From: Lamellibrachia columna
Taxonomy: Eukaryota > Annelida > Polychaeta > Sabellida > Siboglinidae
Reading direction: 5' to 3'
NCBI GenBank assembly: GCA_963662155.1
Contig: OY759267.1
Location: 11,717,623-11,781,622, forward strand
Length of the DNA: 64,000 bases
The translations under genes were made by a program, and so were the position numbers. Below, piece by piece: positions 17,205-55,501 of the stretch. Under the pieces are notes generated by a model, which had not been told where the DNA came from, did no database searches, and saw only the letters and a program-made list of their open reading frames with translations. The number at the start of each line of letters is the position of its first letter. Positions within the stretch are counted from its first letter, which is position 1.

Positions 17205-17206
17205 TC

Positions 17207-18061
17207 TCCCTCCCTCCCTCCCTCCCTCCCTCCCTCCCTCCCTCCCTCCCTCCCTCCCTCCCTCCCTCCCTCCCTCCCTCCCTCCCTCCCTCCCTCCCTC
17301 CCTCCCTCCCTCCCTCCCTCCCTCCCTCCCTCCCTCCCTCCCTCCCTCCCTCCCTCCCTCCCTCCCTCCCTCCCTCCCTCCCTCCCTCCCTCCCTCCCTC
17401 CCTCCCTCCCTCCCTCCCTCCCTCCCTCCCTCCCTCCCTCCCTCCCTCCCTCCCTCCCTCCCTCCCTCCCTCCCTCCCTCCCTCCCTCCCTCCCTCCCTC
17501 CCTCCCTCCCTCCCTCCCTCCCTCCCTCCCTCCCTCCCTCCCTCCCTCCCTCCCTCCCTCCCTCCCTCCCTCCCTCCCTCCCTCCCTCCCTCCCTCCCTC
17601 CCTCCCTCCCTCCCTCCCTCCCTCCCTCCCTCCCTCCCTCCCTCCCTCCCTCCCTCCCTCCCTCCCTCCCTCCCTCCCTCCCTCCCTCCCTCCCTCCCTC
17701 CCTCCCTCCCTCCCTCCCTCCCTCCCTCCCTCCCTCCCTCCCTCCCTCCCTCCCTCCCTCCCTCCCTCCCTCCCTCCCTCCCTCCCTCCCTCCCTCCCTC
17801 CCTCCCTCCCTCCCTCCCTCCCTCCCTCCCTCCCTCCCTCCCTCCCTCCCTCCCTCCCTCCCTCCCTCCCTCCCTCCCTCCCTCCCTCCCTCCCTCCCTC
17901 CCTCCCTCCCTCCCTCCCTCCCTCCCTCCCTCCCTCCCTCCCTCCCTCCCTCCCTCCCTCCCTCCCTCCCTCCCTCCCTCCCTCCCTCCCTCCCTCCCTC
18001 CCTCCCTCCCTCCCTCCCTCCCTCCCTCCCTCCCTCCCTCCCTCCCTCCCTCCCTCCCTCC
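17207..18061. repeat. Pure (TCCC)n microsatellite, ~855 bp
   Basis: About 213 uninterrupted TCCC units. One strand is homopyrimidine and the other homopurine (GGGA). The 306-residue Pro/Ser/Leu frame across it is only the translated repeat. Runs of three G every fourth base on the minus strand could form G-quadruplexes or triplex DNA. The purity suggests recent expansion. Confidence 0.97.
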
Positions 18062-29160: not shown

Positions 29161-29344
29161 GTTGGAAGCAATTCACTGACTTTTGGTGAATACGTTAAAA
29201 CACAAGATTCATTATGGGAGCTGCAAAGGTCACAATTTCAAATAGTGGAGACAACATTGATATGCATAGTTCTGTATATGGTGTGTATGGTGGAAGACAT
29301 CAGTGGGTGAAACCCGTTGATTTGGAGTCCATCCATCATACTAT

Positions 29345-29490
29345 AATTCAATCATCCAGTTGGGATGGGACACCTGGTAATTGGAGTTCTCCAAGTTACT
29401 GCACTTTTGTTGGGATGGGACCTGGTAACTGGAGTTCTCTGTGTTACTGCACTTCAGTCATCCAGTTGGGATGGGACCTGGTACCGAGAC
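29345..29490 (-). repeat. Small tandem repeat over the end of the last JmjC exon, 3 units
   Basis: On the minus strand TACCAGGTCCCATCCCAAC occurs at the exon end and twice more downstream, about 60 bases apart (the last copy with a GT insertion). If 29478 were a splice junction, this would be a third junction array. If the exon reads through to TGA at 29454, it is a repeat of coding tail and 3'UTR. Confidence 0.7.
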
Positions 29491-29588
29491 TGCCCTGGAT
29501 CAATGCCCATCTGCATGAGGACATCTTTCGTCACCTCAGCTCCTTTTGCCAGAAGATTTGTTGGTAGAACAGACATTACAACCTTCAC
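29454..29588 (-). CDS. JmjC oxygenase gene, last visible exon
   Basis: On the minus strand an acceptor GATTGCAG is followed by GTGAAGGTTG..., phase 0. It encodes VKVVMSVLPTNLLAKGAEVT, then KDVLMQMGIDPGQSRYQ and VPSQLDD, with a TGA at 29454-29456. It joins smoothly to the 36.4-kb exon (SPAEQ then VKVVMSVLP). A CAG/GTCCCA at 29478 could be a donor but is weak; read-through to the stop with AATAAA about 300 bases on is more likely. This is a helical C-terminal tail after the catalytic domain. The acceptor region is the founder of the 29.6-30.3-kb array. Confidence 0.7.
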   Translation of the reverse strand: MKVVMSVLPTNLLAKGAEVTKDVLMQMGIDPGQSRYQVPSQLDD

Positions 29589-30345
29589 CTGCAATCATAA
29601 AGCTACACTCAAAGAACATACATTACAAGCTTCACCTGCAATCACCATGCTACATTCAAAGAACAAACATTACAAGCTTCACCTGCAATCACTACATTCA
29701 AAGAACAGACATTACAACCTTCACCTGCAATCACAAAGCTCCAGTCAAAGAACATACATTACAAGCTTCACCTGCAATCACCATGCTACATTCAAAGAAC
29801 TTACATTACAACCTTCACCTGTAATCACCATGTTACATTAAAAGAACAGACATTGCAAACTTCACCTGCAGTCACATGGCTACATTCAAAGAACATACAT
29901 TACAACCTTCACATGCAATCACAAAGCTACAATCAAAGAACTTACATTACAACCTTCACCTGCAATCACCATGTTACATTCAAAGAATAGACATTGCAAC
30001 CTTCACCTACAATCACATGGCTACATTCAAAGAACATACATTACAACCTTCACATGCAATCACAAAGCTACAAACAAAGAACAGCTGTTGCAACCTTCAC
30101 CTGCAATCACATGGCTACATTCAAAGAACATACATTACAACCTTCACATGCAATCACCATGCTACAATCAAAGAACAGCTGTTGCAACCTTCACCTGCAA
30201 TCACATGGCTACATTCAAAGAACATACATTACAACCTTCACATGCAATCACAAAGCTACAATCAAAGAACTTACATTACAACCTTCACCTGCAATCACAT
30301 GGCTACATTCAAAGAACAAACATTATAACCTTTACCTCCAATCAC
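29566..30345 (-). repeat. Minisatellite made of the 3' splice junction (47-bp unit, ~17 units)
   Basis: The unit on the minus strand is about 24 intronic bases ending GGTGATTGCAG plus about 23 exonic bases starting GTGAAGGTTG. The first copy is the genuine exon border at 29588/29589. Further copies extend upstream into the intron every 47 bases (one gap of 42) to about 30340. About 13 of 17 keep AG/GT at the border. Those near 29908, 30050, 30145 and 30239 have TGCATGTGAAG instead. ORFs over the array are products of it. Confidence 0.9.
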
Positions 30346-31330
30346 AAGGGTGCACACAGTCATTAGTGGTGACTATTGTGGGTAGTTTTACTGTTGCGAT
30401 AGTATTGCTATAACTATCGAGATAGTATCATAAAAGCTTAAATTAATACAGACCTGCCTACACCAAAAATGTCTTGTCAGTAATGCTGCTCTCATACTAA
30501 TTATGCCATCATACTAATTATGCCATCATACTAATTATGCCATCATACTAATTTTCAGGATTACAGGCCTGCTGTCAGTAATAGTTCAAAACCATGTCAA
30601 GTATTGTCAGAAAAACGGCACCACTGTCAGTAATACTTTAATACTGGTTCATTCCTATGGCGATGGTTGCCCCAAAACCAAGCTATCATTAATAAACCAA
30701 GAGAGGTGTTTTGAAGTGTTCAGTTATCAGAACAGTAATGCAGTAATAACTCATAACCAGAATTAGTAGAAATGTGCAGAAGCGTAACTGTGTTTAATGC
30801 AAATGCATCTATAGCCAATTTACACTGTCTAGAACTGTTGTACTGTACTATCTTTTAAAGTCGAACTTTAAGCAACTGAAAGAACCTGAATAATTTTGTG
30901 TCTTTGAATATTAAATTAATCATTGAAACTTGAATTTAATGTAAAACATTCAAGACATCATGCTGACTCAAGCATAATTCCAAATTATAGTCAGATTATG
31001 TAAACAGCAAATAATAAATACCACTCTGAGATTTAAACTGAAAACTTTACTATGGAGAAAAGCAAAGGATAATCTGGGTGCCAATGTGTGGTAGTCTCTA
31101 AATTATAAGTTCAGAATCGACAGGTGCAATTTGTAACAAAGAACACATTGAATTTTACATTGCGACATCTAGTTTTATCAACACAAGACACATCTGATTA
31201 GGGTGCTGTTAGCCTACTTCAGGCCTGGTCTCCTTAGAGAGAGATCTGTGATAGGCACTTTTTAAGTCACAGCTGACTCAGTTCGACTTGACAACAAGTA
31301 GAGCTTCAAGGGTATCATCTACCAAGGAAT
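30346..31330. other. Intron sequence, no gene; short 17-bp repeat
   Basis: Apart from about four copies of ATACTAATTATGCCATC (30493-30555), nothing recognisable is present. It lies in the last intron of the JmjC gene. Confidence 0.5.
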
Positions 31331-36429: not shown

Positions 36430-36579
36430 CTGTTCAGCAGGAGACAGCATATGAATGGTGTTCGGAAGATCTCTGCGTCTAATGTTGCCGACTGTGATGA
36501 TCTCCTCAAGCACGATGCGGTAGTTGTTACAATTCATCATCTGACTGCTTACTGCAATTGTTTCTTCAAGGTTGAATGC
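36430..36579 (-). CDS. JmjC oxygenase gene, exon after the GWFHQ exon
   Basis: The acceptor TGTTGCAG precedes GCATTCAACC and the donor CAG/GTAATA follows. Both junctions are phase 0, and 150 nt give 50 codons. It reads AFNLEETIAVSSQMMN, then NYRIVLEEIITVGNIRRRDL and MLSPAEQ. In JmjC proteins the third iron ligand (GWWH) is followed by N-L-E-x-x-I-A-V, which this provides. It therefore completes the double-stranded beta-helix and starts the C-terminal helices. The splice-site array lies about 200 bases upstream in the preceding intron. Confidence 0.85.
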
Positions 36580-36793: not shown

Positions 36794-39700
36794 GGGATGA
36801 CTGAACTAGGTAAAGGTCATACATACTTGATGTTACCAGCCAGTGGGGATGACTGAACTAGATAAAGGTCATACATACTTCGTGGAACCTGCCAGTGGGA
36901 TGACTGAACTAAGTAAAGGTCATACATACCTGATGGAACCAGGGCATACATACCAGGTACAACTAGTCAGTGAGGATGACTGAACTAGATGAAAGGTTAT
37001 ACATAACTGATGGAACCAGTCAGTGGGATGACAAAAAACGGTAAAGGTCATACATACTTGATGGAACCAGCCAATGGTGATACCTGAACTAGGTAAAAGG
37101 TCATACACCTCATGGAACCAACCAATGGGGACGACTGAACTAGGTGAAAGGTCATACATATTTGATGGAACCAGCAGTGGGATGACTGAACTAGGTGAAA
37201 GGTTATATATACCTGATGGAACCAGCCAATGGGGACGACTGAACTAGGTGAAAGGTCATACATACTTGATGGAACCAGTCAGTGGGATGACTGAACTAGG
37301 TGATATGTCATGCATACCTCATGGAAGCAGCCAGTAGGATGACAGAACTATATAAAGGTTATACATACCTGATGGAACCAGCCAGTGGGGATGACTGAAC
37401 TACCGGTTAGGTGAAAGGTTATACATACCTGATGGAACCAGCCAGTGGGAACTGAACTAGGTGAAAGGTTATACATACCAGATGGAACCATCCAGTAGGA
37501 ACAACTGGACTAGGTGATAGGTCATGCATACTTGATGGAACCAGCCAGTGGGGACGACTGAACTAGGTGAAAGGTTATACATACCAGATGGAACCAGCCA
37601 GTGGGAACGACTGAACTAGGTGAAAGGTTATACATATCAGATGGAACCAGCCAGTGGGAACAACTGAACTAGGTGATAGGTTATGCATACTTCATGGAAC
37701 CAGCCAGTGGGGATGACTGAACTAGGTGAAAGGTTATACATACCTGATGGAACCAGCCAGTGGGGACGACTGAACTAGGTGAAAGGTTATACATACCAGA
37801 TGGAACCAGCCAGTGGAAACAACTGTACTAGGTGATAGGTCATGCATACTTGATGGAACCAGCCAGTGGGGATGACTGAACTAGGTAAAAGGTTATACAT
37901 ACCTGGCGGAACCAGCCAGTGGGGACGACTGAACTAGGTGAAAGGTTATACATACCAGATGGAACCAGCCAGTGGGAACAACTGGACTAGGTGATAGGTC
38001 ATGCATACTTGATGGAACCAGCCAGTGGGGATGACTGAACTACAAGGTAGGTGAAAGGTTATACAAACCAGATGAAACCAGCCAGTGGAAATGACTGAAC
38101 TAGGTGAAAGGTTATACATACCTGATGGAACCAGCCAGTGGGGATGACTGAACTACCAGGTAGGTGAAAAGTCATACATACCTGATGGAACCAGCCAGTG
38201 GGGACGACTGAACTAGGTGAAAGGTTATACATACCAGATGGAACCAGCCAGTGGGAACAACTGTACTAGGTGATAGGTCATGCATACTTGATGGAACCAG
38301 CCAGTGGGGATGACTGAACTAGGTAAAAGGTTATACATACCTGGTGGAACCAGCCAGTGGGGACGACTGAACTAGGTGAAAGGTTATACATACCAGATGG
38401 AACCAGCCAGTGGGAACAACTGGACTAGGTGATAGGTCATGCATACTTGATGGAACCAGCCAGTGGGGATGACTGAACTACAAGGTAGGTGAAAGGTTAT
38501 ACAAACCAGATGAAACCAGCCAGTGGAAACGACTGAACTAGGTGAAAGGTTATACATACCTGATGGAACCAGCCAGTGGGGATGACTGAACTACCAGGTA
38601 GGTGAAAAGTCATACATACCTGATGGAACCAGCCAGTGGGGATGACTGAACTAGGTGAAAGGTTATACATACCAGATGGAACCATCCAATGGGAACAACT
38701 GGACTAGGTGATAGGTCATGCATACTTGATGGAACCAGCAAGTGGGGACGACTGAACTAGGTGAAAGGTCATACATACTTGATGGAACCAGTCAGTGGGA
38801 TGACTGAACTAGGTGATAGGTCATGCATACCTCATGGAAGCAGCCAGTAGGATGACAGAACTATATAAAGGTTATACATACCTGATGGAACCAGCCAGTG
38901 GGGATGACTGAACTACCAGTTAGGTGAAAGGTTATACATACCTGATGGAACCAGCCAGTGGGAACTGAACTAGGTGAAAGGTTATACATACCAGATGGAA
39001 CTAGCCAGTAGGAACAACTGGACTAGGTGATAGGTCATGCATACTTGATGGAACCAGCCAGTGGGGACGACTGAACTAGGTGAAAGGTTATACATACCAG
39101 ATGGAACCAGCCAGTGGGAACGACTGAACTAGGTGAAAGGTTATACATATCAGATGGAACTAGCCAGTGGGAACAACTGGACTAGGTGATAGGTCATGCA
39201 TACTTCATGGAACCAGCCAGTGGGGATGACTGAACTAGGTGAAAGGTTATACATACCTGATGGAACCAGCCAGTGGGGACGACTGAACTAGGTGAAAGGT
39301 TATACATACCAGATGGAACCAGCCAGTGGGAACAACTGTACTAGGTGATAGGTCATGCATACTTGATGGAACCAGCCAGTGGGGATGACTGAACTAGGTA
39401 AAAGGTTATACATACCTGGTGGAACCAGCCAGTGGGGACGACTGAACTAGGTGAAAGGTTATACATACCAGATGGAACCAGCCAGTGGGAACAACTGGAC
39501 TAGGTGATAGGTCATGCATACTTGATGGAACCAGCCAGTGGGGATGACTGAACTACAAGGTAGGTGAAAGGTTATACAAACCAGATGAAACCAGCCAGTG
39601 GAAACGACTGAACTAGGTGAAAGGTTATACATACCTGATGGAACCAGCCAGTGGGGATGACTGAACTACCAGGTAGGTGAAAAGTCATACATACCTGATG

Positions 39701-40195
39701 GAACCAGCCAGTGGGGATGACTGAACTAGGTGAAAGGTTATACATACCAGATGGAACCATCCAATGGGAACAACTGGACTAGGTGATAGGTCATGCATAC
39801 TTGATGGAACCAGCCAGTGGGGATGACTGAACTAGGTGAAAGGTTATACATACCTGATGGAACCAGCCAGTGGGGACAACTGAACTAGGAGAAAGGTTAT
39901 ACATACCAGATGGAACCAGCCAGTGGGAATGACTGGTCTAGGTGAAAGGTTATACATACCGGTACCTGATGGAACCAGTCAGTGAGGACGACTGGACTAG
40001 GTAAAAGGTTATACATACCTGATGGAACCAGCCAGTGGGAATGACTGGTCTAGGTGAAAGGTTATACATACCGGTACCTGATGGAACCAGTCAGTGAGGA
40101 CGACTGGACTAGGTAAAAGGTTATACATACCTGATGGAACCAATCTGTGGGGACGACTGAACTAGGCGGAAGGTTATATATAATTGATGGAACCA
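36794..40195 (-). repeat. Minisatellite made of the 5' splice junction (~53-bp unit, ~60 units)
   Basis: On the minus strand each unit is about 26 exon-derived bases (PTGWFHQ codons, ending GGTTCCATCAG) plus about 27 intron-derived bases (GTATGTATAACC, then TTTCACCTAGTTCAG). The founder is the end of the 50305-50425 exon. Border variants are CAG/GTATGT, CTG/GTATGT and CAA/GTATGC, all plausible donors. Higher-order duplications are visible: 37939-38090 recurs at +435 and again at +1510, and 38497-38685 equals 39572-39760. T1 separates the array from its founder. Confidence 0.9.
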
Positions 40196-40476
40196 CACTG
40201 CCAAAAATAATTTTCTTAAGCAAGAAAATATTTATTTAAACAAGAAAATTTTCTTGAATTAAAAAAACGCAAAGAAATTTTTTCTTAGCAAGTTCCAGAT
40301 ATGTAATTGAATAAGGAAATTTTCTTGAATGAAGAAGATATTTCTTACTGAAAAAAGATTTAAGATAAATATTCTTAATGCTAGAATTTTTTTCTTGAAT
40401 TAAGAAAACATTTTCTTACTCAAGAAAAACATTTAAAATAAATATTCTAAATGAAGAAGTTTTTCTTGAGTTAAAG

Positions 40477-41462
40477 CTGCTTCCTCAAATGGTTTAACCC
40501 ATCGTGAATCCGGTTCATTCCAGGTGTGTAGTGTATGACTAGTTTAAGTAATGTGCGCAGTTTAATAAAAAATGCCTATTTTTTTTCAAATCATCGAAAG
40601 AATTGACTTCAGTCATTAGATCTGGTAAGGATCAAAATAGTGGATATCCAAAATTGTAAACGATGCGCGAGTCAATGCCAATCATGGGCATGACTTCAAT
40701 CCTCTCGTCGATCACACAACAAAGTTAAAAAATTTCACCAAGGGTGAAAATCATGGTTTTTCAGAATGTCGATTTTCACTTCACTTAATGCTTCAACAAT
40801 CAGTCAAGTAATTTAATAGTTTGTCTGATGATTTCACAAAAACTACATACAAAAGTTGCACAAATGAGGTAGAATGTTGCAGTGGATACTAGGTAGGTTT
40901 GTTTTTTTGTAAAATTACTTTGAAATGAGTCTAGCAAAAAATAAAAAAATCAAGGATGCACCTTTAAAACTGCTTCCTCAACTGATTTAGCCTGTCGCAA
41001 ATCCAGTTCATTTGTGTCCAAATATGTAGCGTGTGAATATTCTATGTAACATCTGTAGTCCATTTAATAAAAAATGCATATTTTTTTCAAATAATCGAAA
41101 GAATTGACTTCAGTCGTTAGATCTGGTAAGGATCAAACTAGTGGATATCCAAAATGGTAAACACTGTGTGGGTCAATGCTGATCATGGGCATGACCTCCA
41201 TCTTCTCGCCAATCACATGACACAGTTAACAAAATTCATCAAGGAAGAAAATTATGATTTTTCAGCATTTCGATTTTCACTTCAGTTAATGTTTGAACAA
41301 GCATTAACTAATTTAACAGTTTGTCTGATGATTTCACAAAAACTACATACAAAAGTTTTACAAATGAGCTAGCATGTTGCAGTGGATACTAGGTAGGTTT
41401 GTTTTTTTTGCTAAATTTATTTGAATTAAGACTAGCAAAAAAATCAAATTGATTAACCACCT
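40477..41462. repeat. Two ~490-bp tandem units inside T1
   Basis: Units start at 40477 and 40969 with ACTGCTTCCTCAA-like sequence. Both hold GAAAGAATTGACTTCAGTC, TCATGGGCATGAC and GCAGTGGATACTAGGTAGG. Divergence is moderate. Non-coding. Confidence 0.85.
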
Positions 41463-42050
41463 TTAAGAAAAAATTGTTTTTGAAGATATATATGTTAAAT
41501 AAATATTCTTTAAATGATTTTTTTTTGCAATTTGTGCACATTATTATTTTCTATCCACCCACAAGTTTATAATTTTATGCTTATTGGTAAAGGAAACAAT
41601 CTTGGCAAAATAATAAGATGAAATATGGCACATAATGCTATGCCAACAGCAGAGGTGTATTAGTTTAACGTGTACAGATTGGGTGAAAGTAATTCACCAT
41701 AGGGGGTTGCACTATTGCTAGCATGTTGTTCGTGTTAATTTGTTGGCTCAAACTTCATTAATTTTTATTTATTGATGAATAATGTCTGACTTGTCAACTG
41801 TGTGACAAGAAGGCCCTACACAGCTTTAAAACAGACTTGTTATCAAATGCATGTCAATGCAAATGCCATTTTCCAGGATCACATTCACATTCAAATACAA
41901 ATGTTTATGCATTATATATGCATCATAATTATATTAGCAAAGCTACATGTTCTAATATAAGCATCGTACAATGTAATACAACTATATACACCATGGTTTT
42001 ACTTAGAAAGTGGATTTACAGGTTATACAATGATTCTAAAATCTGCTGAG

Positions 42051-42224
42051 TATTCTGCTTACAGAGCACTTTATCAAAGTATTCTGCTTACAGAGCACTT
42101 TATCAAAGTATTCTGCTTACATAGCACTTTATCAAAGTATTCTGCTTACAGAGCACTTTATCAAAGTATTCTGCTTACAGAGCACTTTATCATAGTATTC
42201 TGATTACAGAGCACTTTATCAAAG
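42051..42224. repeat. 29-bp tandem repeat, 6 units
   Basis: Six copies of TATTCTGCTTACAGAGCACTTTATCAAAG-type units, with three substitutions in total. The related reversed T1 copy has a single divergent unit near 57465-57490. Confidence 0.95.
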
Positions 42225-42705
42225 TCGGACAAAGAGCATGTTTTGCAACTGTATTTACAATTCATACAATGTAAATGTAGATTTTATTAATGATGAATTT
42301 ATTAATGATGAATTTGGGCATTAGAAATATAAAATGTTTGGGGGTTGCATTCAAATACATATGCTCTCTGTTGAGTCTGGATTAATTTTTTAGCTATTGC
42401 ACAAATAGAACCATTTTAATGTAAATGTTTATGGTATGCAATCAAATGCACTGAAAATGTAACAACTGCCTTTGAATGTGCATGGCTACTGCATACCATC
42501 CAAAATGTGCATTCAAATGCATCTGTTAACAAGTCCGCTACCAAATAATATTTAAATGTAATATTACTGATTATCATTTTACTCAAATTGTTTTGATATA
42601 TTATCAGATCACGATATGAGTGAAATTTTCAACACAAGTTTTTGCTATCGACTCTTGGAGTAAATATATGTTGATTCTATTGCATTAATTATTTCTGATG
42701 GACAG

Positions 42706-42847
42706 TGTGTCAAGATGTGACTTGTACAAAAGACTGTAGCTACGATCATGCGCACTACTCTTGCCAGCCGGGTAACAAGGCCTGAATGCCGGAATTGTAA
42801 GGTGTACTAAACAATTCAATAGTGACAATAAATTACATATTGAAACA
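42706..42847 (+). repeat. 5' LTR (142 bp)
   Basis: TGTGTCAAGATG to TATTGAAACA. It differs from the 3' LTR at roughly ten positions, so the insertion is not recent. Confidence 0.95.
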
Positions 42848-42862
42848 TGGTGGCAGCGAGTG
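42848..42862 (+). promoter_or_regulatory. Primer-binding site
   Basis: TGGTGGCAGCGAGTG directly follows the LTR. It starts with TGG, the complement of a tRNA CCA end. The tRNA was not identified. Confidence 0.75.
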
Positions 42863-42952
42863 TATAAGGTGAGCCTAAGCCCCAGGATCGCAAACATGCG
42901 AGTAACGCACGCGGTTTTACCATCTATAGTCTTTTGTGAAAACACCGTCACG

Positions 42953-43790
42953 ATGGCAGTGGCAGAAACGGTGGCTGCGGCGCCGTTAGCTAATATAAAT
43001 CCACCGCCACAACTGTATTTAAAGGACAGCCCCAAAGAAGAATGGACGATGTTTAAGCGTTTGTTTAACAACTACACTCTCATTACAAGACTAAATCGGC
43101 AGGAGAAGCCATATTAACTGGCAGTGCTCCTCAACGTTATGAGGCTGACAGGTGTCAGACTGTATGATAACTTGACGTTCACCGAACAAGAAGACAAAGA
43201 AGACACTACTCTCATCATCAGAAAAATAGATGCTGCTATACAAGGCGAGATAAATGAAACGTATGAGCGGTACGTTTTCAATAGAAGAAACCAAGGTATC
43301 GAGGAATCCTTTGAATCTCGCAAAATCATGCAACTTTTGCGATTGTATGAGCAACTCACTTATCAGAGATAGGATTGTCATGGGCGTCTACGACGCAGGA
43401 ACGCGAAAACACCTGCTCCAAAAGCGGCAACTCACGTTACAAGCAGCCATGGACATATGCCGTTCCGACGAGGCGGCAACGGCACAGATGAAGTCAATCA
43501 ATGACTCTGCAGAGATACACAAAATTAAGAAATCTCACTCTGGTGATGCTGACAGACAAAATTCAGCTTGGAAACCTGGCAATTTACGCAGTCAAAGGAC
43601 AATGCAGCAAAGACAAAACGCCACATACAGTGACACTAAACGCACGTGTAATTTCTGTGGACGAGTTCACCAACAAAAGAAAGTCTGTTGTTCGGCATGG
43701 GGGAGAACGTGTAGTAGTAGTAAACTGCTGCAAGATGGGAAACAAGAAGGTGCATACAGTGGACCGGTGTGGACGCACCGATGAAGAATC
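42953..43790 (+). pseudogene. Gypsy gag, frameshifted
   Basis: The likely start is the ATG at 42953 (MAVAETVAAAPLANINPPP). A capsid-like stretch EEWTMFKRLFNNY is followed by a stop at 43115-43117. Coding resumes to about 43320, then changes frame (SCNFCDCMSNSLIRDRIVMG). A CxxC motif (TCNFCGRVHQQKK, 43648 on) marks the nucleocapsid, but the expected CCHC spacing is degraded. Gag would form the particle and bind the element RNA. Confidence 0.75.
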
Positions 43791-43799
43791 CATCATGGC

Positions 43800-44055
43800 T
43801 TTGGATAAAGGCAGATACACCAAAGGCCCAATATACGCCGAAATGTGGATGAACGACAAATCCGTGAAATTTCAAATCGACAGTGGCGCAACCGTGAATG
43901 TGTTACCGAAAAAGTTTGTCAGCAAAGATGACATTCACCCATCTGATGTCACATTACATATGTGGAATAGGACCACGAGAGAGGTCACAGGCAAAAGTTG
44001 GCAACGCTGGTCAACCCGGTCAATCAAACAAGTTACTCCGTGCAGTTCAAAGTAG
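43800..44055 (+). pseudogene. Gypsy aspartic protease region
   Basis: The frame carries VKFQIDSGATVNVLPKKF, with the DSGA catalytic motif at 43879-43890. A one-base shift in an A-run near 43995 separates it from the pol frame that starts by 43998. The protease would process Gag-Pol. Confidence 0.8.
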
Positions 44056-46862
44056 TCGAAGGAAACTTTACTCCTCTTCTGGGTCGACAAGCAGCAGAAA
44101 AGATGGAACTAATAACAGTGAATTATAACTGTTTCAAGCTACTTCATCAAGTCATGACAACAAACTTGTTGGATAAATATGCCGACGTATTCGATAGTGG
44201 ACTAGGAACCCTACCGGGAAAGGTACACCTTCACGTGGAAGAGGGTGCAAAACCTGTACAGTGTTCTGCCAGAAGAGTGCCAGTTACACTCAAACCGAAG
44301 CTAAAATCTGAATTTGACAGAATGGTTGAGAGGGGAGTCATATGTCCCATCGAGGAGCCGACTGAGTGGAGCAACCATATTTCAGTTCAGACAAAGAAGG
44401 ATGCATCGCTGCGAGTATGCATTGACCCGAGGCCACTCAACAAAGTTCTACAACGAGAACTGTACCCATTACCGACAATGGAAGAGGTGCTACCAGAGAT
44501 GTCAACTGCAAGAGTCCTGTCAAAGGTAGACCTACAATCGGGCTACTGGCACTGTGAACTAGATCACGAAAGCAGTCTGCTCACCACCATCATAACGCCG
44601 TTCGGTAGATACCGATGGAATCGTCTACCATTTGGAATGAATGTTAGTGCAGAAATCTTCCAGAGGAAATTGAACCAAACACTGGAGGGTTTGGACGGAG
44701 TCGTATGTGTCGCCGATGACATAGTGGTGTTCGGGTGTGACGAAGAAGATCATGACAAGAAGCTGCAGAGATGTAGAGAAACAGGCATGAAGTTGAACAG
44801 GAACAAATGCGAGTTCAGACTCGATGAAATCAACTTCATGGGACACAGGGTGACCAGTGAGGGTTTGAAACCTGACGAAAGGAAGATAGAGGCAATCCTC
44901 AAGATGGAAAACCCCACAGATGTCAAGGGAATTCAGAGGTTGCAGGGAACAATAGGATACTTATCGGAGTTCCTACCTGGCCTCTCCAGCACTATGGCGC
45001 CCATCAGGAGACTGACTCAGCCTGGTGTGCTATGGCAATGGACCAAAGAACAAGACGAAGCAATGGCGAAAGTAAAGAAGCTGACGACGGAGACCCCCGT
45101 TCTTGCATACTACGACCCACACAGCGAGTTAGTCGTAGAATGTGATGCTAGTGAAAGAGGACTGGGAGCTGCACTCCTTCAGAACGGGAAACCCATTGGG
45201 TATGCAAGTCGTGCGCTCACCAGCACAGAAACTCGATATGCTCAAATCGAGAAAGAATGTCTAGCCATTGTGTTTGCGTTGGAACGTTTCCATCAGTATA
45301 CGTTCGGGAGAAGAACAATCGTACACACAGATCACAAGCCATTGGAAATGACCGTGAAGAAACCGCTATACACAGCACCAAGGAGACTGCAAGGAATGCT
45401 CCTTCGCATGCTGCAGTATGACACTGAAGTCGTATACCACAAAGGGAAAGAGATGTATATTGCTGATACACTCTCAAGGTCATACCTGCCGCACAGTGGA
45501 GGTACTGACAACTTCGGTGCTGTGAATGCAGTGAGGCATCTACCAATCAGCACAGAACGCATGCAAATGCTCAAGACTTGCACGGACAGGGATGAGACAT
45601 TGCAGATGTTGAAACATGTGATACAGTGAGGTTGGCCAGAGTCGAGGCATGAAGTACCAGCTAGTGTCCATGCATACTTCAGCATGAGAGATGAACTTGC
45701 TGTCAGCGATGGACTGATATTCCGCGGTGAACGAGTTGTTATTCCCGAGGGAATGCGGAAACTCACGAAGGAATGTCTCCACAGATCACACCTTGGAGTG
45801 GAAAGTGTGCTACGAAGAGCACGTGAATGTCTGTACTAGCCGAACATGGCGGCAGACATCAGACAAGTCGTTGAGAAATGCGAGGCATGCAGATCGTATG
45901 AGAGGTCGCAACAGAAAGAAACCCTCATAACACGTGAAACACCGACGCTACAATGGGAGAAAGTTAGTGTAGACTTGTTCAGCTGGGAAGGACGAGACTA
46001 TCAAGTCATAGTCGACTACACAAGTAACTTCTGGGAAGTTGACAGAATGAACTCAACAACCACAACAAGCGTGATTAAACAGCTGAAGTCACACTTTGCT
46101 AGATTTGGCATACCATCTGTGGTCGTGAGTTATAACGGACCTCAGTACGTGTCGGAAGAGTTCTGCACATTCGCTGCAAAATGGGATTTCGAGCATCAAA
46201 CAAGTGCACTAGGGCACCAAAACGCCAATAGGAAAACAGAAGCGGCTGTCAAAGCTGCAAAGTTGATGGTCCGCAAATGCAAGAAATCGCAGACAGACCC
46301 CTATCTTGTTCTGTTAGAGATCAGGAACACACCAACACAAGGTCTGGGGAGCAGCCCGGCACAACGTTTACTGAACAGGAGAACCCGGACATTATTGCCG
46401 ACGTCCAGCAAGCTTCTAGCACTGCGAGGGGAAGAGTATCTGAACTAAGACAGAATCCGCCTCAAGGATTTGCAATGTAAACAGGCCAAACACTACAACA
46501 AGACTGCCAAAGATCTGCCCGTCCTAGAAGAAGGGGATGTGGTCCGAATGAAGCCATTTCGTCACGGACAAAAGGAATGGGAAAAGGCTGTTGTGCAAAG
46601 ATGACTGGATGAGCGTTCGTATGAGGTAGATACACCTGAGGGCACATACAGGCGAAATCAGGTGCATCTAAGAAGAACACGCGAGACAGTACCACCTGTG
46701 CCAGTTCTGTCACATGACCTGCAACGCTATGCAGCTGTTCCTTTCGCGAAAAATAGCATTACCCTGAACGAGACGGTGATTAGCCGTGAACCGCTGATCA
46801 TCAGACGATCAACCAGACAGAAGAAAAGACCTGCGCATCTGGCGGACTATGTACAAAAGTGA
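43998..46862 (+). pseudogene. Gypsy pol: RT, RNase H and integrase, four premature stops
   Basis: One frame is kept for 2.86 kb. The RT shows RVPVTLKPKLKSEFDRMVER, LSKVDLQSGYWH, PFGRYRWNRLPFG and CVADDIVVFG (VADD at 44709-44720). RNase H shows VVECDASERGLGAALL and HTDHKPLE. The integrase shows HRSHLGVE with CEACRSY (zinc-binding HHCC), VDLFSW, SYNGPQ where Asp of DNGPQ is Tyr, and KTEAAV. A C-terminal module with RRNQVHLRR follows. Stops are TGA 45627, TAG near 45837, TAA 46446 and TGA near 46602; the first two replace expected Trp codons. Confidence 0.95.
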
Positions 46863-47195
46863 TTGTACTGTGAAAACATTGATCGAAAATTGCACTGTGC
46901 AAGAATGATTGAACATTTAACAATAATTTCGGTTTAATTGACCAGTTTACCTGATTATTTAGAATATATGACGTTATAGTTCATAATTATTATTATTAAT
47001 CGTTAAGATGTTTGAGAACATTCAACATTTAATTCATAATTATTGATAGTCGTATATAGACGATATTACAATGAAGACTAATTGTGGGCATGTGTTTTTA
47101 CATGTTCATGCACTGCATACTACTTATAATTGTTTGCTGTGAATAGATTAAGAAGTAGAATACTCATAATTTAAAATGACATTAAGTTCTTTTAG

Positions 47196-47206
47196 AACAA
47201 AAGGGA
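47196..47206 (+). promoter_or_regulatory. Polypurine tract
   Basis: AACAAAAGGGA directly before the 3' LTR, the usual plus-strand primer site. Confidence 0.8.
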
Positions 47207-47348
47207 TGTGTCAAGATGTGACTTGTACAAAAGACTGTAGCTACGATCATGCGCGCTACTCTTGCCTGCCGGGTAACTAGGCGTGAATGCCGGAATTGTA
47301 CGGTGTATTAAACAATTCAATAGTGACAATAAACGACATATTGAAAAA
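47207..47348 (+). repeat. 3' LTR (142 bp)
   Basis: TGTGTCAAGATG to TATTGAAAAA. The terminal CA of the 5' LTR has become AA. GACAG follows. Confidence 0.95.
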
Positions 47349-50263
47349 GACAGGTGCTTATAAACTACTAGAGCTAGGATACGATACAAAATATCTGATC
47401 CAAGTCTAGTTTACAGTAATCAAGAATACATGAAATAAAAATGTATTAATCAGGTATTCAGCATAAGTGTAATCTTTGTTCAGCACACTTTGATTTTAAA
47501 ATAATGTCATTGTGTGTGCTCTATAAATGTATGCCCGACATGAGATTTAGATTTAGGTCAGTCTCCCATGACATAACACTTGTGACATATATGCAGTGAG
47601 ACCACACTCTCAGTGCCCCAGTGGTCTCATTAAAGGTCTGCTAATGAGGGTTGTGTGAGGGTCACCAGTTAGTTTCCACATCTGGACAATCTAGTACCAG
47701 GGTGGTAGTAGAAGCCATGCTGCTTATACAACTAGTGGGAGATACATAATAAAGAAGACCTCTGGATGATTTGATTTGTATCCTATTCATTCCATGAGAC
47801 AAAAGGTAAGAATGTTGTCCAGGTATATTCTTTTATAGCAATTTGACATATGGCCCGGCCATGCAATAAACACAGTGAGTACATTTTCGAATTTATGCAG
47901 CACCTGGGCTGTTTGAAAAATGGCAGTTTGCATATTCGGTACTTTCAACTTGTCAACTTGATCATGAATAGAAATGAAAATACTCATTAACATGTCATCA
48001 TTCTGACTGTTTTAACTTTTATGAAAGCTAATTTGTAATAAAATAAATCTATGGTTGAAATCCTTGGCTTTCACATACTAGGAAGTTCTCTAATTGTATC
48101 TTCTGGCAATGTATTGTTCCTTCTTTGATGTGTGCAGAATGACGTGGACATCTAAATCATGCCATTGCTACTGTATCTTTGAAATTGAACATAATTCAAA
48201 TACTTTTCAAATTTCAACTAATTGTTACTACAGCAATTTAGTTTTGAATTTGTTTGTACTTTACTGCGCCAGTAGTCCCCTCTTATAAAGCCACTCCTTC
48301 TGTAGAGGTACAAGGGCTGTAATGTGTGTGTTTGTGTGCGTTTGGTGTTTAAATCCGTGATCTTGCATTTTGTAATATATTGCCGTGAAATGTCAAAAGT
48401 GAGCAAGTGACGATGGTTTTTTAAATATCGGACAAAACATATTTTGGTTTGCTCTCTTGTGCATATTACAGAACAGTAATTGTACACCATTCTTTGGACT
48501 ATTTGACTAAGTGTATTTATACAAATTATTAGTACTTTTTTGTGACATGGTTATTTGTTGATTTTGTGTCACTTGCTCCTTTTTTGTTATTTTATTAATT
48601 AAGTTACTAACACAGAAAAATTTTGTGACATAAAGCAGCAAGTGCAATCAAATCACCCTTGAATAATTCCCCTTAAGAAACAATGAGGCAGGTCTTATGA
48701 CAGAATTATGTGACCAGTTGTCGTAATCAATTGACATTTTTAGAATTAAGTAATGCTTTGATTTGTTTTATTTGGCAATGCTCAAAGTTCGGGCATGCGA
48801 CCTTTTCCAGTTTTTGTGTCAATAAGGTATAACCATTGCTATTTGTTGTTGTGCAGTAATTTGTAATAGTTTCATAAATTTGTCACTCGCCAATTTGGGA
48901 CAAAAGATAATTAGACAGAACAGTGATATTTCAGCTGCAGTATGATAAAGGATTGTGCACAGTGCAAATACGGTGATCATAACACTTGTCTCACATTCTC
49001 ATTCTGAAAGTTGAAATTCGTAAAATATCGAGTTTAAGGCTGAATTTTTCTGAAGATATAGTAACTACATTCCTATTGAACAAAGCAGTCATTGCATGTA
49101 TCCCTGACAGTATACAGTAGCACTTTGGAACTTGTTCTATAAAATAACAATTTAAAATACAGACTGCTAAAATCACTCTCAGAAATAAAAATAAAATAAA
49201 AAAGTTAATGTTTGCACACTATGTACATACATTATCCTTCTCATTATCATTCTTTAATTTTGTGATGCACATCTGTACGAATATATCTAGACATTCAGCA
49301 AATTTAAGCTTTGTAGTTAGAGGCACCTGAAAATATAACAAGTGTGTTTACCCCTTAGCTTAGTTTTTCTGCAAAGTTGTTCAGATATAACCATTTGCTA
49401 ATTGGTTAAAATGTTAGGATATTCAGAGACATCACCTTTTTAAATTCCTGAAAATTGGTTGATTTGACAAGGAATAACCCTACTGGGTATGAGAGGTGCA
49501 GACTGATTGCATGGCTGTCACAATAACACGTGATACTATTGGTCACACTTACCCCCTTTTCTCATAATAAAACACTATTCCATTGTCACTTGCTCCTTTA
49601 TGCTGTGTCATCTGTAGAAAATCTGCCATCTAAAAGGTTTTATTATGTTAAAATATTGCTTATGGTCCCATCATTGTGAAAGTTCCATCATTGTGATGGC
49701 AAAAATATCACTTGCCCCTTTTGTCATTTCACGGTAGTATGTTCCTTGATAATTGATACTCTTCATCGCAATTTGCATTTTGTAGTAAATTTTTTTTCTT
49801 ATTTTCAATGTGAAAATGTTTCTTATTCCAATAAAATAAAGAAAGTCTTTCAGAAGGTTTTTCTTGTTTTCAGAAAAAATATTCTAACTAACATGAAACA
49901 TCCGAAATGACTACAAGAAAAATATTCTTATTAAATTTAAGAAAACATTTCTTGATTTACAAATTTTCTTGTGTGGCTTCCTAAAAGATAATTTAAGAAA
50001 TATATTCTTGTTTTTTTCTTGATTTAAGAAAATGCTTTTCTTATTTCAGAAAAACATTTCTTAGATAAGAAAAATTTTCGGGGATAAAAAAAATATTTCA
50101 ATAGCCTTTTCTTGATATTAGAAACTATTTTCTTAAGCCAAGAAAATGTTTCTTATGAAAAATTTCTTAAATCGCAAAAATTATTTTCTTATGTGGCTCT
50201 CTAGAAAAAATTTCTTGTTTTAAGTTTTTTCTTAAAACAAGAACATAATTTTTTAGCACTGCA

Positions 50264-50304
50264 GCCAGTGGGGATGACTGAACTAGGTGAACGGTTATAC
50301 ATAC
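50264..50304 (-). repeat. First, founder-adjacent unit of the 5'-splice-site array
   Basis: Directly after the exon donor come the 27-nt intron segment (GTATGTATAACC, ending CACCTAGTTCAG) and the start of a second exon-derived copy (TCATCCCCACTGGC), where T1 cuts in. This ties the array at 36.8-40.2 kb to this junction. Confidence 0.85.
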
Positions 50305-50425
50305 CTGATGGAACCAGCCAGTAGGAATGAGCAAGAGATCTCCTGCCTGCTGGTCAAAATCTATTGACTTTGCATGTTTGAACAATGGATACTTCTCGTA
50401 ATGAGGCTCGTATGCATTGACAGGG
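50305..50425 (-). CDS. JmjC oxygenase gene, exon ending at the third iron ligand
   Basis: The acceptor TATTTTCACAG precedes CCCTGTC; the donor is CAG/GTATGT, a near-perfect consensus. 121 nt give one base completing a Ser codon, plus 40 codons: PVNAYEPHYEKYPLFKHAKS, IDFDQQAGDLLLIPTGWFHQ. GDLLLIPTGWFHQ matches the JmjC strand that carries the distal iron-binding His. Upstream, phase 2 fits the 55.0-kb exon (KYN plus AG); downstream, phase 0 fits the 36.5-kb exon. Its last 26 bases plus the intron start seeded the large minisatellite. Confidence 0.9.
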
Positions 50426-51004: not shown

Positions 51005-52025
51005 ATGTTATTGTCAACTGACGATGTTGACAATGATTCTGTCCACTGTTGTACAGTGGGTAGTGCTGTCAAATGTTGTACAGTGAGCAGCACTGTCAAC
51101 TGTTGTACAGTGGGTAATGCTGTCAACTGTTGTACAGTGAGTAGCACTGTCAACTGTTGTATAGTGGGTAGCGCTGTCAACTGCTGCACACAGGGTAGCG
51201 CTGTAAACTGTTGTACACGGGGTAGCACTGTCAATGTTGTACACAGGGTAGCATTGTCAGTGTTGTACAGTGGGTAGTGCTGTCAAGTTTTGTACAGTGA
51301 GTAGTGCTGTATAGTGGGTGGTGTTGTCAGGTGTTGTGCAGTGAGTAGTGCTGTCAACTGTTGTACAGTGGGTAGCGCTGTAAACGTTTGTACAGTGGGA
51401 AGTGCTGTCAATAGCTGAGTAGCATTGTCAAGTATTGTACAATGGGTAATGGTGTCAAATTTTGTACAGTGAGTAGCACTTCAACTGATGTACAGAGGGC
51501 AGTGCTGTATAATGTTGTACAGTGGGTAGCGCTACTAACTGTTGTACAGTGGGTAGCGCTGTCAACTGTTGTACACAGGATAGCGCTGTCAATTGTTGTA
51601 CAGTGTGTAGTGCTGTGAAGTGTTATACAGTGTACAGTGTGGGAAGTGCTGTCAACTGGGGCACAGTGTTGTCAAATGTTGTACAGTGAGTAGTGCTGTC
51701 AACTGTTGTACAATGGGTAGTGCTGTATAGTGGGTAGCACTGTCAACAGTTGTACAGTGCATAGTGCTGTCCACTGTTTTACAGTGCAAAGTGTTGTCAA
51801 CTGTTGTACAGTGAGTAATGCTGTCAACTGTTGTACAGTGGGTAGTGCTGTCAACTGTTGTACAGTGAGTAGTGCATTTAACTGTTGTACTGTGGGTAGT
51901 GCTGTCAAGTGTTGTACAGTGGGTAAGTGCTGTCAACTGTTGTACAGTGGGTAGCATTGTCAAGTATTATACAGTGAATAGTGTTGTCAACTGTTGTACA
52001 TTGGTTAGTGTTGTCAAGTGCTCAT
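51005..52025. repeat. ~30-bp minisatellite, GTCAACTGTTGTACAGTGGG units
   Basis: About 30-35 degenerate copies of a unit around GTCAACTGTTGTACAGTG and GGTAGTGCT. It lies in the JmjC intron between 55.0 and 50.4 kb, but does not touch an exon border. Frames of Cys/Thr/Val repeats on both strands are products of it. Confidence 0.9.
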
Positions 52026-55000: not shown

Positions 55001-55086
55001 CTGTTATATTTGATGCACTCCAGGGGGAATCCTGATTTCATGCCTCTCCTCACATGCAGAAACTGGTCCTGCAGTGGTGGGTACAA
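55001..55086 (-). CDS. JmjC oxygenase gene, exon LYPP
   Basis: The acceptor TTATTTCAG precedes TTGTACCC; the donor is CAG/GTGCAT. 86 nt give 28 codons plus AG: LYPPLQDQFLHVRRGMKSGF, PLECIKYN. In JmjC proteins K-x-W-x-L-(Y/F)-P-P follows the 2-oxoglutarate-binding Lys; here KRWK ends the preceding exon and LYPP starts this one. Phases 0 (left) and 2 (right) match both neighbours. Confidence 0.85.
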
Positions 55087-55339: not shown

Positions 55340-55501
55340 CTTCCATCTTTTTGTGCCAAACAGAACGGCATTGGTTCCGGTCCAGTTGTATGGGTCAATG
55401 TGTAGGGTAGAACGGGAGAAAGCAGTTCCCCACAGTAGCATGGCATTCCATGGTCGTAACTCATTGGGAAATAATTGGAAGAAGTCTTCTTCAAGGTACA
55501 C
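55340..55501 (-). CDS. JmjC oxygenase gene, exon with HxD iron ligands (first visible exon)
   Basis: The acceptor GTTATTTAG precedes GTGTACC; the donor is AAG/GTGTTG, phase 0. 162 nt give 54 codons: VYLEEDFFQLFPNELRPWNA, LLWGTAFSRSTLHIDPYNW, TGTNAVLFGTKRWK. HID supplies two iron ligands, T in TGTNAV and K in KRWK fit the 2-oxoglutarate-binding residues, and GTNAVLFGTKRWK is the typical JmjC strand. The partner exon at 50.3 kb supplies the third ligand. The protein is an Fe(II)/2-oxoglutarate oxygenase of the JMJD6/FIH/HSPBAP1-type small JmjC class; subfamily and substrate cannot be told. Confidence 0.9.

Follow-up and report, generated by a model that had tools for sequence, protein, structure and literature searches.

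Why does an intron of a dioxygenase gene carry dozens of copies of the end of the preceding exon, splice donor included? The window, the 64-kb stretch of DNA analyzed here (C7:11717623-11781622, from an 880-Mb genome in 30 contigs), contains the gene only in part. Five of its exons lie inside the window, the other three fall within the 60 kb past it (L009-L014), and the eight exons, when joined, give an intact frame of 444 amino acids (aa). The gene lies on the minus strand, a correction to an initial annotation of the locus. Exon 4 (55340..55501, like all window exons on the minus strand) bears an HID motif, which we take to hold iron ligands on the basis of the JmjC motif. It is followed by exon 5 (55001..55086) and by exon 6 (50305..50425), the JmjC exon, which ends in LIPTGWFHQ at the donor CAG|GTATGT. 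Exon 7 (36430..36579) precedes the last coding exon, exon 8 (29457..29588), which ends in QLDD before the stop codon TGA. A short tandem repeat (29320-29483, minus strand; about three copies of a 48- to 56-bp unit) lies over the stop codon and the 3' flank. The 444-aa protein was 79% identical over 421 columns to P0001, a publicly available predicted protein that also has 444 aa. Pfam returned Cupin_8, JmjC, and JmjC_2 for an 89-aa two-exon piece, and JMJD6 entries were the best solved-structure matches.

The reading frame crosses CAG|GTATGT at 50305/50304 and continues into the exon at 36579. We collected 94 homologous proteins from 163 candidates with a 173-aa query (E <= 1e-10). The H and Q of GWFHQ were retained in 90 of them, the remaining four being gapped at that place. 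Residues on both sides of the exon 6/7 junction were present in 90/94 homologs, none of which had an insertion there, and none of 88 had an insertion at the last junction (exon 7/8). From frame and homology, we judge that exon 6 is spliced at 50305, as had been proposed, and presume that splicing in this animal is normal.

The junction-spanning minisatellite occupies 3.4 kb (36794..40195, minus strand; located by TRF, a wraparound split, and genome matches), and its distal edge lies 214 bp from the exon 7 acceptor. Its 53-bp unit corresponds to the last 26 nucleotides (nt) of exon 6 (50305-50330, minus strand) together with the 27 nt that open the following intron (50278..50304, minus strand). 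This source copy at the exon was identical to the array consensus at 50/53 positions, which supports the earlier proposal that the unit derives from the exon/donor border. By our reading, two of the three differences are synonymous third-codon sites in the exon. When the 69-bp junction was realigned with the array, the score was 118, while the best of 500 dinucleotide shuffles reached 30, so that the reported resemblance of the exon end to the array was borne out. TRF gave a period of 53 and 60.4 copies at 36946-40195, with overlapping rows reaching 36793. The wraparound split yielded 65 rows, the first and last of which are partial and the sixty-first poor, in agreement with the earlier count of about 60. 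Both sides of each of the five window exons, ten in all, were compared with the window by BLAST. Further copies were detected for the exon 6 donor (63, not counting itself), for the exon 8 acceptor (14), and for the stop-codon region (2), but for none of the other sides. In a genome search that skips very common words, 64/64 reported matches of the exon 6 junction were at this locus.

Most copies retain splice-site dinucleotides. GT stands in the donor position in 58/65 rows, AG in the acceptor-like position in 60/65, and both in 54/65; the acceptor-like form TTCAG, noted initially ahead of the exon-derived part, occurs in 45/65. The donor 9-mers were CAGGTATGT (21 rows), CTGGTATGT (13), CAAGTATGC (10), and others (21), and the three main ones reproduce the donor variants described in the initial annotation (CAG/GTATGT, CTG/GTATGT, and CAA/GTATGC). 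The middle units are homogenized (mean nearest-neighbor distance, 0.36) and the edge units divergent (4.5 for the first two and 4.1 for the last eight), and 38/64 rows are identical to another row. We also detected a higher-order shift of 1513 bp, with about 1.2 kb matching at 93-100% per 100 bp. Its two outer edges share one register: by our reading, the exon similarity starts from TCATTCC and the distal similarity extends to TCATCCC.

The array had been placed in the downstream intron. It does lie in intron 6, but the 10,066 bp between it and the exon (40196..50261) are a later insertion, which had been missed. The insertion has inverted ends, AAGAAA-rich subterminal repeats, and nested repeats. 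It begins 16 nt into the second unit, whose first 16 nt remain next to the source copy (50262..50277, minus strand), and the array picks up with the rest of that unit. TG, the last 2 nt of the cut piece, flanks the insertion on both sides as a 2-bp target-site repeat. Deleting the insertion together with one TG restored a whole 53-nt unit with 48/53 positions identical to the consensus. Since the insertion interrupts the second unit, the array originally started at the authentic donor. Intron 6 would measure 3,657 bp without the insertion, mostly array.

On the gene strand, the insertion starts with CAGTGCTAAAAA and finishes with TTTTTGGCAGTG; its ends read CAGTGC... and ...GCAGTG here and CACTGC... 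in relatives. A genome-wide search with the 150 bases at its exon-side end gave 40 scored matches from 203 candidates; these include the present copy, and the other 39 are on many contigs. As the query started at the presumed end, the sequence across that end was read in relatives, namely in 14 of the 39. CACTGC stood at the inferred end in 12 of these 14 and a changed form in two. Local similarity started at the first base in four relatives, at the fourth base in two, two to three bases ahead of the end in seven, and 22 bases ahead of it in one, and thus within 3 bases of the end in 13/14. Six of the 14 have a common flank and therefore represent one larger duplicated segment; the remaining ones have different flanks, giving nine separate sites. 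A Ty3/gypsy retrotransposon with frames for RT/RNase H and integrase is nested in the insertion (42706..47346, plus strand; 140-nt direct end repeats, 94%), and further stretches resemble other places in the window. The insertion is a candidate CACTA-type element, given its CACTGC ends, the 2-bp target repeat, and the AAGAAA-rich ends. A relative of the subterminal repeats, ending in TTTTTTGGCTGTG, is also present in an upstream intron of the host gene (L009:about 990-1260).

A second junction-spanning minisatellite was found at the last acceptor (29567..30358, minus strand; TRF, split rows, and BLAST). Its 47-bp unit comprises 25 intron nt ending at AG and 22 exon nt. The array has 17 copies, including the authentic border, and is joined directly to exon 8. 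AG is retained in 13/19 split rows, two of which are partial ends, and 16/16 reported genome matches of the exon 8 acceptor border were at this array. Sixteen further acceptor-like sites were listed, and splicing to any of them would lead to an early stop codon. In the most favored reading, this array arose in the same way as the donor array, and its exon-adjacent copy would be the real acceptor. Neither the insertion nor the second array had been noticed initially, nor had the prior description of such repeats as "mirages."

Taken together, these results led us to a probability of about 85% that the 53-bp array is a mirage-type minisatellite which arose by in-place tandem duplication at the exon 6/intron 6 border and most likely has no function. 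A 53-bp segment across the border would have been duplicated in tandem, in place. The first duplication may have occurred via a short match between TCATTCC in the exon and TCATCCC at +28 of the intron, which lie 53 bp apart; this match comprises 6 of 7 bp and could be due to chance. The array would have grown by slippage or unequal exchange, including the 1.5-kb block shift; that it did expand is evident from this shift, the rows identical to one another, and the divergent edge units. A mobile element with CACTGC-type ends later entered the second unit, moving the array 10 kb off. With both the end of the coding exon and the authentic donor retained in the first copy, the remaining copies can drift as intron. 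Most likely, splicing uses the outermost authentic sites and neither array is functional.

Does the donor array nevertheless influence expression of the gene? The initial annotation had suggested that it could compete with the true donor or regulate transcript output. The rows with both AG and GT would then act as decoy sites or as frame-shifting 26-nt microexons that lower the amount of productive mRNA. The frameshift itself was confirmed: insertion of one 26-nt copy brings a stop codon into frame 119 nt ahead of the last junction, and three insertions would restore the frame. The real exon 6 donor pairs with U1 at -10.2 kcal/mol, and 19 of the 58 array donors found by pattern equal it, compared to 2/616 GT sites in the inserted 10 kb; the three other donors of the window exons are weaker (-6.2 to -8.1 kcal/mol). 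Precedent for the use of repeat units comes from the human 6-16/IFI6 gene, two downstream repeat units of which are used as donors according to PMC4526556. However, most array units have weaker donors than the real one, and conservation does not support the idea. Among 37 distinct units, the nine donor columns had a conservation of 0.874, below the unit average of 0.911, and ranked tenth from lowest among the 53 circular windows. Exon-derived columns (0.888) were not better kept than intron-derived ones (0.933). With the donor nine this low and the exon columns not favored, no selection for splice sites is visible. The GT (0.93) and AG (0.97) columns exceeded the 0.91 average, which leaves room for weak constraint on them. 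Moreover, homologous proteins have no insertion at the exon 6/7 point, and splicing is reportedly undisturbed by the mirages of amphioxus (PMC3087553; PMC3902484). We therefore regard a regulatory role of the array as improbable.

An artifact of assembly, either in the array itself or in its distance from the exon, is less probable still. Assembled array length can be wrong, and the 1.2-kb stretch recurring at 93-100% invites caution. But the units vary in sequence and the edges diverge as usual, the insertion shows the ends typical of its family along with the 2-bp repeat, and the host gene holds a second, independent array of like type. Least credible is a dispersed satellite or element that picked up the end of the exon by chance and came to lie in the downstream intron. 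The 10 kb now separating exon and array would speak for such an origin, but these 10 kb are an insertion inside a unit, and the reported genome matches were all local for both arrays (64/64 and 16/16), on which grounds we reject it.

Minisatellites abound in this genome. Arrays with a period of 10 or more and no fewer than 2.5 copies account for 10.7% of the bases in the window, 3.6% in the next 60 kb, and 39% in 20 sampled 10-kb stretches at 1.0-6.7 Mb of C7 (L015-L034). Two of the 20 samples, L016 and L019, lie wholly inside arrays. In the window, a perfect CTCC array of 856 bp and 214 copies (17206-18061) was also observed. The gene body contains 10 arrays (period 20-200, at least three copies), two of which span an exon border, compared to 0.13 expected at random placement (P = 0.007). 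For the second border array, P is 0.11 once the first, which drew attention to the gene, is given. Border arrays thus occur at 2/14 borders of the host gene. An intronic 56-bp minisatellite of about 30 copies (L009:4132-5835) starts about 70 bp past the exon 3 donor. It was rejected as border spanning; two weak border matches start >30 nt inside the intron, and no exon sequence was found in the array. A 27-bp minisatellite with 54- and 81-bp higher order (51039-52017), about 600 bp before exon 6, showed no similarity to exon borders.

We further compared donor-like fit among 74 independent arrays (period 20-200, at least three copies, at least 75% match) from the window, the next 60 kb, and the 20 C7 stretches. 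Only 2/74 reached p < 0.05, and the median p was 0.62; therefore, a general enrichment of donor-like sites in the minisatellites of this genome was rejected. The two arrays of the host gene ranked second and third (p 0.04 and 0.07). The first-ranked array (L023:6809-7212) has a 37-bp unit with CAG|GTGAGT (ACAG|GTGAGTGG, an acceptor-donor look-alike); no exon was seen beside it, and LINE-like sequence adjoins. These ranks and the excess of border arrays in the gene body speak against a chance origin without function, yet overall the best fit is that both arrays are by-products of tandem amplification in a genome rich in minisatellites. It is doubtful, if somewhat less so than a function of the donor array, that tandem amplification in this genome favors splice borders, so that such arrays arise recurrently within single genes and feed new introns or microexons.

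Border-spanning minisatellites have been described before, though rarely. The term mirages is used for amphioxus repeats of this type in PMC3087553, which cites Adh3, describes BflGb6 and BflGb9, and proposes intron gain from mirages; PMC3902484 adds troponin C and compares PGBD5 as similar. In these accounts, mirage units span 5' or 3' borders, many keep AG/GT, and central units are homogenized while edge units are not. The arrays described here are similar in that the unit of each spans an exon-intron border judged authentic by frame and homology, and AG/GT is present in many but not all units. Likewise, the 47-bp array is contiguous with its border as it stands and the 53-bp array once the insertion is discounted, and the middle units of the latter are homogenized with divergent edges. 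In contrast to the amphioxus cases, two arrays occur in one gene, one of them split by a mobile element, and their copy numbers (about 65 and 17) compare with 6 and 3 in the two BflGb6 haplotypes. New here are the large size, the involvement of two borders of one gene, and the transposon-split array.

Other systems are related in part. In potato RdRp, an intron was gained by tandem duplication across an intron-exon border (PMC4974935). There, as here, a border-crossing tandem duplication carries splice signals along, but we saw no new intron, the copies lying inside an existing one. Earthworm metallothionein genes were rejected as a precedent, their intronic minisatellites not being border spanning in the portion of the literature covered. 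The minisatellite of the human interferon-induced gene 6-16 (IFI6) was reportedly described by Turri et al. in 1995. Two of its downstream repeat units reportedly serve as donors, whereas the array donors described here are candidates only. Our search of a limited library found no report of mirages outside lancelets, a weak negative.

A further difference from the amphioxus mirages is the affinity of the host gene. When a tree was built from the window protein and 27 homologs chosen from the 94, the host gene fell apart from Branchiostoma within a set of seven rows (SH-aLRT 97), consisting of the host gene, P0001, two further rows, and the annelids Paralvinella, Dimorphilus, and Capitella. However, forcing the host gene and P0001 beside Branchiostoma was not rejected (AU test, p 0.42), and identity to four Branchiostoma proteins was 59-61% over the 173-aa region. 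The host gene thus appears to group with annelids rather than Branchiostoma, an annelid placement being likelier but not proven.

If the host gene is annelid, as the tree favors without proving, mirages are not peculiar to lancelets. The approximately 65 copies amount to a naturally occurring set of rival donors and acceptors within one gene whose frame is intact. Should splicing be confined to the outermost sites, the locus would offer a clean test of splice-site choice among near-identical neighbors; if array sites are used, it would be a natural case of microexon birth.
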